A DNA stretch of 64,000 nucleotides, taken from contig JALHPF010000004.1 of the NCBI GenBank assembly GCA_022842595.1, positions 62,001 through 126,000 on the forward strand, written 5' to 3'. Each line of letters begins with the position of its first letter. The stretch's first letter is position 1. Under the pieces are notes generated by a model. The model was not told where the DNA came from. It was given only the letters and a program-made list of their open reading frames with translations, and made no database searches. The translations under genes were made by a program, and so were the position numbers. This DNA is from Rubrivivax sp. (GTDB lineage Bacteria; Pseudomonadota; Gammaproteobacteria; Burkholderiales; Burkholderiaceae_C). Shown here piece by piece: positions 8,112 to 44,409 of this stretch.

Positions 8112-9359
8112 TCAGGTCACCGCCTGCTTCTGGTTGAATTCCGGGCGCTGCCATTCGCCGTTGGCCAGCACCTGGCGCAGGTGTTCGGCGGCGTCCCAGG
8201 CGTCGACGAAACGCACGTACAGCGGCGTGAAGCCGAAGCGCAGCACGTCGGGGGCACGGAAGTCGCCGATCACGCCGCGGGCGATCAGCGCCTGCATCAC
8301 CGGGTAGCCGATGTCGTCGTGGGCGAAACACACCTGGCTGCCGCGCTGTGCGTCGTCCTGCGGCGACACCAGGCGCAGCTGCGGGCAAGTGGTGGCCACC
8401 TGTGCCGCGAACATCCGCGTCAGCGCCAGCGACTTGGCGCGCAATGCCGCCATGCCGCCCAGCGGCTCGGCCGCCAGCACGGTGTCGACGCCACATTCCA
8501 GCGCCGCCATCGACAGCACCGGCGGCGTGCCGCACAGGTAGCGCGCAATGCCCTCGGCGGGCCGGTAGCCGGGCGTGAACTCGAATGGCGCGGCATGCCC
8601 CATCCAGCCGGCCAGGGGCTGCCAGAAGCGGCCGGCGTGGCCCGGGTGGGCCCAGACGAAGGCCGGTGCGCCCGGCCCGCCGTTCAGGTACTTGTAGCCG
8701 CAGCCCACCGCGAAGTCGGCGCCGTCACGGGTCAGATCCACGGGCACGGCGCCGGCGCTGTGGGCCAGGTCCCAGATCACCAGCGCGCCGGCCTCGTGCG
8801 CCGCCTTCGACAGCGCCGCCATGTCGTGCATGCGGCCGGTGCGGTAGTTCACATGCGTGAGCATCAGCACGGCCGCGCGTGCGTCCAGCAGGCCGGGCAG
8901 TTCGTCGGCTTCGGCCAGCACCAGCTCGAAACCCTGCCGGGCGGCCAGGGCCTGGGCGATGTACAGGTCGGTCGGGAAGTTGCTGCGTTCGCTGATGATC
9001 CGGGTGCGCCCCGGTGCGTCGGCACCCACCATGCTGAGCGCAGCGCTGAGCACCTTGAACAGGTTCACGCTGGTCGAGTCGGCGACCACCAGTTCATCCG
9101 CGCCCACACCCACCAGCCGCGCGATCTTGTTGCCCAGGCGCCGCGGCATGTCGATCCAGCCAGCGCTGTTCCAGCTGCGGATGAGGCCTTCGCCCCATTC
9201 CTGCGTCACCACCTGCTGCACGCGCGCGGCGGTGGCGCGCGGCAGCACGCCCAGCGAGTTGCCATCCAGGTAGATCAGGCCATCGGGAAGGCTGAACTGG
9301 CTGCGCAGGGCCGCCAGCGGGTCGGCTTGGTCAAGGGCAATGGCGTCGTCTCGGGTCAT
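8112..9359 (-). CDS. kynU: Kynureninase
   Basis: PLP enzyme that cleaves kynurenine to anthranilate and alanine. The protein has 415 residues, as usual. The N-terminal family signature is [15 protein letters not shown], and the PLP lysine is K223 in [16 protein letters not shown]. The helix [11 protein letters not shown] upstream carries the expected cofactor contacts. It lies between kynB and kynA on the same strand, but is separated from kynB by 448 bp occupied by a palindromic repeat locus. An ATG start is used. The repeat lies immediately upstream, so any RNA structure in it would sit in the kynU leader if the operon is read from kynB. Confidence 0.96.
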
Positions 9360-9441
9360 TGTGTTGGTTCCTCTTGGGGGGCTGCTCTCGGCCCGTTGCG
9401 GTCGTTCGCTCGGACCCTTCGGGACGCTGCTTTTGTCCCAT

Positions 9442-9571
9442 GGGCTGGGCGAGCCGGGTGGCCCCTTCCGCTCATGTCCCCCGCCTTCGGCCGCCCATGA
9501 GCCTTCGGCTCACGGGCGGCCGCAGTCTCCTCCTTTACTTCGCTCCAGGGTCCACCCGACTCACCCAGCCC
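9442..9571 (-). repeat. Hairpin repeat unit A
   Basis: Outer arms 9442-9461 and 9552-9571 pair over 20 bases with two mismatches. An inner hairpin (9490-9503 with 9507-9520) pairs over 14 bases with one mismatch. Between outer and inner stems are two boxes shared with units B and C. Read on the minus strand they are GCGAAGTAAAGGAGGAG (9527-9543) and GGGGGACATGAGCGGA (9467-9482). All three stem mismatches become G-U pairs if the minus strand is the RNA, which is the direction of kyn transcription. A further shared stretch, TGTCGGCGCGC, follows the right arm. Confidence 0.85.
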
Positions 9572-9615
9572 GCCAACGTGTCGGCGCGCCACGATGGAAT
9601 GCAAAACCCGTTGCC

Positions 9616-9745
9616 GGATCAGGTGGCTGGGGTGTGTTGCGTGGCGAAGTAAAGGAGGAGCCCACGGCCCATCAGGTGCCTCAGGCACCTGATGGGCCGT
9701 GGGCGGGGGACATGAGCGGAGCAACACACCCCAGCCGCCTGATCC
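9616..9745 (+). repeat. Hairpin repeat unit B (inverted relative to A)
   Basis: Outer arms 9616-9640 and 9721-9745 pair over 25 bases with one G-U type mismatch on the plus strand. The inner palindrome is perfect: 21 bases (9660-9680) pairing with 9684-9704 around a three-base loop. The boxes GCGAAGTAAAGGAGGAG (9644-9660) and GGGGGACATGAGCGGA (9705-9720) are identical to those of unit A, but the stems are entirely different in sequence. So pairing, not stem sequence, is conserved. Confidence 0.87.
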
Positions 9746-9807
9746 ACGGGATCCGGTGGCGAGCCAATCGAACGACAGCAACGGGCCGAAGGCGGTCATA
9801 GCGGCCC

Positions 9808-10467
9808 TCAAGCCTTGGGCAATTCGCGCAACACCGCCCGCACCGGCGACGCGTCGGCCGTCATCAGCTTCAGCGGCAAGGCAATCAGCTCGTAGTCGCC
9901 CTCGGGCACGTCGTCGAGCACCAGGTTTTCCAGCACGCGCAGGCCGTGCTGGCGGATCACCTGGTGGCTGTCCAGGGTCTTGCTGCTGGCCGGGTCGATG
10001 CTGGCGGTGTCGATGCCGATCAATTGCACACCCAGTTCGGCCAGCCGCGTCACCGTGGCGGGTGCGTAGGCAGGCAGGTCGGGGTCCCAGCGGTCGATGG
10101 GTGCGCGGCGGTACGTGCGCACCAGCACACGCGGCGGCAGTTCGCGCAACGCGTGCTCGATGTGTTCAAGCCGCACCAGCGGTCCGCAGTCGATGGCGTG
10201 GATGACGCGGCAGCGGCCGAGGTAAGGCGCCAGGTCCAGCGCGCCCACGGCCAGGCCGTCGGGGTCGTAGTGCAGCGGGGCGTCGGCATGCGCGCCGGTG
10301 TGCGGGCTGAGCGTCAGCGTGCTGACGTTCACCGGGCAGCCCGGGCCGATGCGGGCGGGCCAGGCCATCTCGAACGCGGCGTCGCCCGGGAACACCGGCG
10401 TTCCTGCCTGCACCGGGGGCGAGATGTCCCACAGGCGAAGCGGTGGCGAATTCATGTGGGAAATCAT
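9808..10467 (-). CDS. kynB: Kynurenine formamidase
   Basis: Hydrolyses N-formylkynurenine to kynurenine and formate, second step of tryptophan breakdown. It is a 219-residue member of the metal-dependent cyclase/KynB family. The metal-binding signature is H56-T-G-A-H60-A-D-A-P-L-H66, matching HxGxHxDxPxH. The motif [14 protein letters not shown] follows near the middle, and the C-terminus [20 protein letters not shown] is typical. The annotated start is the first ATG; the ATG four codons downstream ([14 protein letters not shown]) is equally possible. It is the promoter-proximal gene of kynB-kynU-kynA, although the repeat locus follows it and could attenuate or divide the transcript. Confidence 0.94.
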
Positions 10468-22125: not shown

Positions 22126-22137
22126 GACGGTTCTTAC

Positions 22138-22218
22138 CGAGGGCAAACCTGTCGAAAGACAGGGACGCAAAGCCTCCGGCCTAAAGCACGCCAGTGCCAA
22201 GGTAGCGGGGTTGCCAGC
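22138..22218 (+). promoter_or_regulatory. Cyclic di-GMP-I riboswitch (GEMM-I)
   Basis: The core AGGGCAAACC, a GAAA-capped hairpin (CCTGTC-GAAA-GACAGG), GGGACGCAAAGCCTCCGGCC, and finally GGTAGCGGGGTTGCC reproduce the GEMM-I aptamer in order and spacing. The closing P1 stem is GGCAA with TTGCC. The sequence AGGGCAAACC equals the Vc2-type c-di-GMP binder rather than the cGAMP variants, as far as I recall them. Downstream, CCGGGC-GAT-GCCCGG and a C5/G5 hairpin lie before the ATG and probably form the expression platform. It controls the subtilase at 22318. No U-tract is visible, so translation control is more likely than termination. Confidence 0.92.
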
Positions 22219-44012: not shown

Positions 44013-44123
44013 GGGCTGGGCGAGCCGGGTGGCCCCTTCCGCTCATGTCCCCCGCCGCCGGCCCTGGCGGGCCGGCGGCTCCTCCTTTACTTCGCTCCAG
44101 GGGCCACCCGACTCACCCAGCCC
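44013..44123 (-). repeat. Hairpin repeat unit C
   Basis: Outer arms 44013-44036 and 44100-44123 pair over 24 bases with two mismatches; both become G-U pairs on the minus strand. The inner hairpin is perfect (44054-44064 with 44069-44079). Read on the minus strand, GCGAAGTAAAGGAGGA (44080-44095) and GGGGGACATGAGCGGA (44038-44053) match the boxes of units A and B. The inner stem differs in sequence from A and B. Its outer arm matches that of unit A almost exactly. The same TGTCGGCGCGC stretch follows the right arm (44132-44142). Confidence 0.88.
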
Positions 44124-44166: not shown

Positions 44167-44409
44167 TTGCAAAGGTGGGCTGGGGCTGGCTGTGGCGCGC
44201 ATGGGAGGCGCCGAGGAGCGCAGGGCCCGCGGCCCCCGCGCGCAGCGCGGTTCAACCTCTGACTCATCGCGGGTGATTGAGCGCAATGAGCGCAGCGAAT
44301 GAAGCGAGTTCCGCGATGGGGCCGCGGGACCGAGCACCGCAGGGAAGCCTGAGCGCAGCGAAGGCCGCCGAGGATAAGCGCCACAGCCAGCCCCAGCCCG
44401 CCTTTGCAA
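44167..44409 (+). repeat. Hairpin repeat unit D (divergent member)
   Basis: Arms 44167-44198 and 44378-44409 pair over 32 bases with one G-U type mismatch on the plus strand. Two inner stems follow: 44223-44236 with 44318-44331, and 44265-44272 with 44311-44318. Four GAGCGCA copies (44216, 44279, 44288, 44351) lie in the internal parts. It lacks the two boxes shared by A, B and C apart from GAGGAG, so it is a relative in architecture more than in sequence. Confidence 0.75.

Follow-up and report, generated by a model that had tools for sequence, protein, structure and literature searches.

A repeat family of nested hairpins with covarying, strand-asymmetric stems, found as an inverted pair in the kynB-kynU junction of Rubrivivax sp.

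An inverted pair of nested hairpins lies between two genes of Rubrivivax sp. and consists of two units of a repeat that recurs throughout this genome and in other genera. The best explanation, to which we assign a probability of about 0.48, is a non-autonomous, REP/BIME-like mobile repeat, one folded single strand of which would be recognised by a putative enzyme acting in trans. The repeat is dispersed, has compensatory pairs, a strand asymmetry, a helix of fixed length and an inverted pairing of its units, and is present or absent at one and the same site depending on the genome, all of which was computed directly. Recognition of the folded single strand, most likely as single-stranded DNA (ssDNA), by a trans-acting enzyme or binding protein is suggested by analogy. 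The preliminary description had missed that two units of one family, read here as mobile, make up the locus as an inverted pair.

The element and its copies

The element sits in the intergenic gap between kynB and kynU, two tryptophan-breakdown genes, in the 64,000-nt stretch of DNA analysed (hereafter the window; Table 1). The locus, both boxes, the outer and inner double stem and the closing inverted repeat were all recovered as first described, and units A and B do have different yet paired stems, with outer arms 88% and 96% complementary, respectively. With up to three mismatches allowed, box 1 had four sites in the window (three exact and one unrelated site with three mismatches) against 0.28 expected, a number reached in 0 of 100 shuffles. 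Box 2 had three sites, all exact, against 1.17 expected, which alone is not significant (11 of 100 shuffles reached three). The units folded 6.5 to 14 standard deviations below dinucleotide shuffles, modelled either as RNA or as DNA. Chance is ruled out for box 1 and for the unit folds. A weak test for a sigma-70-like promoter or a terminator-like site at 9300-9880 found neither.

Table 1. Positions in the window of the element, its parts and the neighbouring genes
Feature	Position	Strand	Remarks
Whole element, units A and B as an inverted pair within closing inverted repeats	9388-9789	.	16 partial matches in the host genome; not present at orthologous junctions in relatives
Left closing inverted repeat, CGGCCCGTTGCGGTCGTTCG-type end	9388-9413	.	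88% complementary to 9764-9789
Right closing inverted repeat	9764-9789	.	pairs with 9388-9413
Unit A	9442-9571	-	outer arms 9547-9571/9442-9466; box 1 9527-9543; box 2 9467-9482; inner hairpin 9483-9527
Spacer between units A and B	9572-9615	.	44 nt
Unit B	9616-9745	+	outer arms 9616-9640/9721-9745; box 1 9644-9660; box 2 9705-9720; inner hairpin 9660-9704
Unit C, the window's third copy, its inner hairpin short	44014-44122	-	box 1 core 44079-44093; box 2 44038-44053
Kynureninase gene (kynU), downstream of the element	8112-9359	-	TIGR01814, above cut-off
Arylformamidase gene (kynB), upstream of the element	9808-10467	-	TIGR03035, above cut-off

Further copies, the absence of which the preliminary description had named as refuting its view, were numerous in the host genome and, by the dozen, in some of its relatives. 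In the host Rubrivivax sp. genome (5.46 Mb, 75 contigs), 54 box 1 sites were found at no more than two mismatches (46 exact and 8 near; 7 for a reversed-pattern control), together with 50 box 2 sites (39 exact; 0 for the reversed-pattern control) and 51 covariance-model matches. The boxes and the inner part of unit C recurred identically at two further places in this genome.

A pattern scan of GTDB genomes detected at least 116 stretches with the repeat, the matches listed belonging to Hydrogenophaga, Rhodoferax, Rubrivivax, Variovorax, Aquabacterium and other Burkholderiales, as well as to Rhodocyclales and Sulfurisoma, Pseudoxanthomonas and one Lysobacterales genome. Of the genomes searched with the model, at least 37 of the 60 in the genus had matches (E <= 0.001), as had at least 13 of 300 in the order, 4 of 369 in the class and 11 of 398 in the phylum (E <= 1e-5 for the last three); these counts are lower bounds, as 66, 13, 10 and 10 candidates were scored per genome, respectively, and six genomes of the genus with 46-63 weaker matches were counted without one-by-one inspection. 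Outside the order, matches were confined to one family (f14), taken to be Xanthomonadaceae-like on the basis of the named matches. The occurrence of the repeat is patchy across distant families.

The preliminary description had recognised no named family in the motif, and this held: no Rfam covariance model reached its gathering score near the element, the best sub-threshold hits being microRNA models at a loose threshold. No match was obtained in IMG/VR with the exact pattern, or in plasmids and phages by BLAST. No description of these boxes or of the repeat was found in the open-access literature covered by the search (including PMC2817692 and PMC12306157), the motif strings matching only texts on primers that are unrelated by their titles.

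Other structured sequences were observed in the window or beside the copies. A second nested-hairpin module, with boxes CGCATGGGAGGCGCCGAGGA and CCGAGGATAAGCGCC, occurs at 44197 and 44368 (+) of the window and in the left half of many host-genome copies; its boxes were found in 16 and 14 distinct contexts among the host loci and the window, and in 6 and 5 loci elsewhere. Inside or near copies at L012, L030, L062 and other host loci stands a perfect palindrome of 27 nt, CACAAACAGTCCA-N-TGGACTGTTTGTG (10 distinct contexts), which replaces the inner hairpin in some copies. The window also contains a c-di-GMP-I riboswitch (22132-22218, +; Rfam 85 bits) directly before a frame matching the subtilase family (Pfam PF00082).

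Fold, covariation and strand asymmetry

Units from many genera are built alike: a 24-bp outer helix encloses a middle, which the boxes make up, and an inner hairpin that varies in length and sequence, giving two nested helices in about 104-131 nt. The sequence of the outer helix is nearly free and its pairing falls steeply at positions 24-26, while the middle is conserved and non-canonical. The molecule under selection would be the motif strand folded into the 24-bp helix, a short box helix of Watson-Crick and G.A pairs, a conserved asymmetric loop and the variable hairpin.

The stems covary, as the preliminary description had proposed from units A and B. Among 72 non-redundant aligned units, 95.3% of the cells were paired, compared to 58.3% after shuffling, a percentage that is raised because rows were admitted only with exact boxes and 15 or more of the 22 stem pairs. 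Both sides had changed in 808 cells (216 shuffled), and the covariation score reached 0.907, compared to 0.203 for shuffled rows and 0.106 to 0.142 with the partner slid. Change on both sides was seen at 31 of the 33 pairs, which is not discriminating alone since 28 of 500 shuffles reached it. Kinship among the sequences of the unit sets was lowered by identity cut-offs only.

The two boxes partly pair with each other, with compensatory changes, as determined in 157 distinct units from 114 loci collected with a looser pattern. This set required at least 19 of 24 pairs, had part of its loop letters fixed by the pattern (except 31, 34, 96 and 97), and left out the row L072+, whose G-C pair appeared spurious. 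Pair 27-100 was Watson-Crick in all 157 units (GC 147, CG 6, AT 3, TA 1), pair 28-99 was C-G in 132 and T-A in 9 with the 16 others unpaired, and pair 31-96 was A-T in 140, G-C in 16 and G-G in one, with no A-C or G-T. Pair 25-102 was formed in 107 of 157 units, including C-G (72), G-C (25) and T-A (7). Between the compensated pairs lie tandem G.A and A.G pairs, at 29-98 (140/157) and 30-97 (149/157). What is left unpaired in the core is an asymmetric loop, 5' GUNAAGG opposite 5' GGACA, the letters of which were partly set by the search pattern. Likenesses of this core to the hammerhead, K-turn, sarcin-ricin and UAA/GAN motifs were weighed and none is claimed.

In variant subfamilies observed at L236, L238 and L239, both boxes have an altered inner part (e.g. 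AAAGGATGCAT with AAAAGGACATG) and keep GCGAAGT.AAGG and GGACATGAGCG. In the main subfamily, the inner hairpin follows a GGAG, which variants such as L236 and L239 lack at this place.

The two strands of the stems are not equivalent. Read on the motif strand, stem mismatches in 93 non-redundant units (out of 161) were G.T or T.G in 179 cases and A.C or C.A in 19. The asymmetry announced for units A and B holds in this set, and the strong covariation with clearly unequal G.T and A.C frequencies is the opposite of what the preliminary description had named as refuting its view. Its statement that all four mismatches of these units are G-U was inexact: the four in the outer stems comprise three T.G and one A.G, and with the inner stems included there are seven non-Watson-Crick pairs, namely four G.T, three A.G or G.A and no A.C. 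The ratio of G.T to A.C was 64:10 in units sense to neighbouring genes, 38:3 in antisense units, 52:6 between convergent genes, 4:0 between divergent genes and 52:14 where the orientation was undetermined. The bias is thus independent of the neighbouring genes, and the folded motif strand is therefore selected other than through read-through transcription in a fixed direction. Selection on the motif strand, as claimed at first, stands; that the selected molecule is specifically RNA is possible. Single units had no link to GC skew (mean 0.0036, standard error 0.0039, n = 73), so no preference for a replication strand was seen.

Paired arrangement, gene context and persistence

The commonest form identified is an inverted pair of two nested hairpins that have a conserved middle in common and differ in their stems. 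Among the matches listed, 118 elements in GTDB loci comprised 25 with two exact-box units, in the order '-+' (23), '+-' (1) or '--' (1), and 93 with one, of which 38 had a box resembling a partner no more than 170 nt upstream, 42 had none and 13 lay too near an end; pairs or probable pairs thus made up 63 of the 105 assessable elements. The spacing between modelled ends was 38-62 nt in 45 of 59 distinct '-+' pairs. Left arms within these 59 pairs had a mean identity of 43% and a maximum of 75%, never reaching 80%, so that the boxes alone were common to both units. When stems were sorted into X and Y classes, 39 of the 59 pairs were hetero compared to 29.7 expected (319 of 20,000 shuffles were as high), a heterodimer pattern that is suggestive only. 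One '- ... +' layout with units 2.5 kb apart (G023) was considered as a transposon and set aside, no transposase-like ORF being recognised inside by eye.

Based on gene models seeded with the window's own genes, 78 elements among the matches listed were flanked by 50 tandem, 25 convergent and 3 divergent gene pairs, compared to 181, 53 and 46 for the remaining gaps of 80 nt or longer; the repeat avoids divergent pairs. A further 12 elements lay within called genes and 28 at edges. Single units in tandem contexts were sense in 21 cases and antisense in 16, and those without a detected partner were sense in 10 and antisense in 8.

The kyn junction itself is usually empty. Among relatives in the genus, 29 kynU-kynB loci were fetched and 27 were readable, of which 26 were short and without a unit. 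The remaining one (L191) carries an inverted pair with the X/Y stem order opposite to that of the host, and because of this order it is probably an independent insertion. In the nearest relative (L181), the junction retains a short remnant resembling both element ends. No target-site duplication could be assigned, empty junctions being available for comparison. In the host genome, the terminal repeat CGGCMSGTTGCGGWCGTTCG stood to the left of 20 and to the right of 22 of 23 units, at fixed distances; elsewhere, a similar end was found within 100 nt of 20 of 139 units, compared to 3 after shuffling.

At pccB-pccA, six loci share units, all sense, with arms changed in step. Thirty further pccB-pccA loci gave 29 resolved junctions, with a unit in one and none in 28, and a conserved regulatory site was rejected on this count; since it is absent from most other resolved junctions, the unit is not a general feature of pccB-pccA. 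In three junctions from other genera (L277, L285 and L301), a different G/C-rich repeat of the CCCCCCAGTCGC...CCCCCGAGGGGCGCC type was observed.

Candidate explanations and comparison with known systems

The mobile-repeat reading is preferred because it fits the copy number, the pairs, the strand bias in both orientations, the tolerance behind genes and the empty kyn sites. Under such a mechanism, ssDNA exposed at replication would let the motif strand fold, a putative enzyme or protein would bind it, and the element would spread in the manner of REPs and BIMEs, copies surviving where harm is small, i.e. behind genes and between operon genes, as in kynB-kynU. What counts against it is that Y1_Tnp/RAYT profile and proximity searches found no enzyme to spread the repeat. 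Moreover, the terminal inverted repeats of the host, which are rare elsewhere, resemble those of a double-strand MITE, and persistence at orthologous places with stems changing in step would be better explained by a function for the host. The lack of an assignable target duplication and of a link between single units and GC skew also counts against it. As to DNA being the folded molecule, such loops, compensated and with tandem G.A pairs, are a hallmark of RNA as well.

A linkage of the repeat to RAYT genes was tested in five ways, with no association. The REP transposase domain Y1_Tnp was not detected in the host genome at E <= 0.001, and it occurred in 9 of 16 genomes with at least 10 model matches and in 13 of 23 with none, unrelated to copy number. 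Box pairs were found near none of 30 Y1_Tnp loci (controls: 1/30 and 1/29); this proximity was counted by boxes only, a strict stem rule missing units with an indel such as the known unit in L355. One host copy, at L030, lies about 100 nt before a diverged RAYT-like gene (L030 1675-2364; NF047646, E = 2.8e-4, below the cut-off). The gene is present in 58 of 60 genomes of the genus, with or without repeats, and box pairs were near it at 1 of 30 loci, the host copy alone, compared to 1 of 30 and 1 of 29 in controls. The diverged RAYT-like gene may be a domesticated transposase; in the host it precedes a gltB-like ORF, and the usual HUH motif is absent by eye.

These counts weigh directly on the idea of a true REP element mobilised by a RAYT (Y1 HUH) transposase, for which the inverted pairs, the single-strand asymmetry and the intergenic places would speak, as they resemble what is described for REPs, BIMEs and REPINs in PMC8266576 and PMC3116915, together with the position of the L030 copy. 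With no box pairs beside Y1_Tnp loci, a RAYT-like gene indifferent to the repeats, similar Y1_Tnp frequencies in repeat-rich and match-free genomes and no GTAG before the palindrome, this reading is strongly disfavoured. Movement of a classical double-strand MITE by a DDE transposase acting on the terminal inverted repeats, with the inner hairpins as passengers, is unlikely: it accounts for the regular CGGCMSGTTGCGGWCGTTCG ends of the host units and for the nearest relative's kyn site, which keeps only a short remnant of both ends, but in other genera most units lack the ends and yet retain the hairpin, and the strand asymmetry and box covariation are left unexplained. Very unlikely, too, is an absence of function in which arm complementarity is kept by template switching or arm-to-arm conversion. 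Such quasipalindrome correction produces compensated changes without selection, but it explains neither the 9-fold excess of G.T over A.C on the motif strand in both gene orientations, nor the conserved boxes and the fixed 24-bp length.

A structured RNA is a serious though less favoured alternative, in which the motif strand would be transcribed by read-through or from its own start, the hairpin bound or cut (as a 3'-end stabiliser, an RNase III site or a protein site), and the copies spread by an unrelated transposition. It would account for the tolerance of G.U and avoidance of A.C, the RNA-like non-canonical helix with its compensatory changes, the enrichment of copies behind genes and between convergent genes, and the inverted pair, which offers exactly one motif-sense unit per read-through transcript; the six pccB-pccA loci also keep the sense orientation, with stems covarying in place. 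It is opposed by the sense and antisense counts of single units in tandem contexts, partnerless ones included, which show no strand preference, by the equal G.T bias of antisense copies, by the weak promoter and terminator test, by the absence from Rfam and by the single unit among the 29 resolved pccB-pccA junctions of the 30 inspected. The RNA-like core and the persistence of some units in sense orientation keep the RNA reading in play. The more specific proposal of the preliminary description, a sequestered initiation site, found no support: the boxes partly pair with each other, single units are sense in 21 and antisense in 16 cases, the bias is equal in antisense copies, and 26 of 27 kyn junctions do without the element.

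The family may form a strand-specific class of structured nucleic acid of its own, being either a case of ssDNA transposition other than by Y1/RAYT, with heterodimeric inverted hairpins as the mobile unit, or a high-copy structured RNA. Small palindromic repeats are abundant in bacterial genomes, and it is seldom known what moves them and which molecule is recognised. For this family, the sequence itself discloses the strand, the length of the helix, the exact non-canonical core and how the pairs are arranged, which makes a probe for the partner protein feasible. If the family is indeed a class of its own, the enzyme or protein recognising the 24-bp helix with its G.A-paired core would itself be new. 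The outcome would be either a second route by which hairpin repeats spread, beside REP/RAYT, or a new structured RNA, in a repeat that sits within operons of ordinary metabolism.

Compared to the structured RNA families of Rfam, the repeat has covarying helices and a conserved non-canonical core in common with them, but reached no covariance model at gathering score. ERIC is an intergenic palindromic repeat with a unit of about 100-130 nt, the mobility mechanism of which is not established. The repeat resembles ERIC and MITEs in being intergenic, palindromic and of similar unit size, but appears to differ from ERIC in sequence, and differs in its variable helices around conserved boxes. Small mobile repeats of bacteria are reviewed in PMC2229807. 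As to the ends, host-genome copies of the present repeat carry terminal inverted repeats, which are rare in other genera.

The closest likeness is to REP, BIME and REPIN elements, which likewise are small palindromes between genes, present in tens to hundreds of copies and frequently arranged as inverted pairs around a spacer of set length. TnpA cuts single-stranded REP and not iREP, so that one folded strand is recognised (PMC8266576), and compensatory hairpin changes are reported for REPINs (PMC3116915). The action of TnpA_REP on one REP strand (PMC8266576) served as the model for the ssDNA recognition suggested here. Irregularities of the stem matter in both REPs and the present repeat. However, its unit of 104-131 nt exceeds the REP palindrome of 20-50 nt, and it differs in its two nested helices with nearly free sequence, its conserved middle and the lack of a linked RAYT, of GTAG and of any conserved tetranucleotide before the outer helix (information near 0 in single units). 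As in BIMEs and REPINs, two copies are inverted with a set spacer (23 of 25 exact-box doublets are '-+'), but the paired units have different stems and are not mutual inverted repeats forming one hairpin. The repeat works like REP, BIME and REPIN elements, yet it is a family apart from them.
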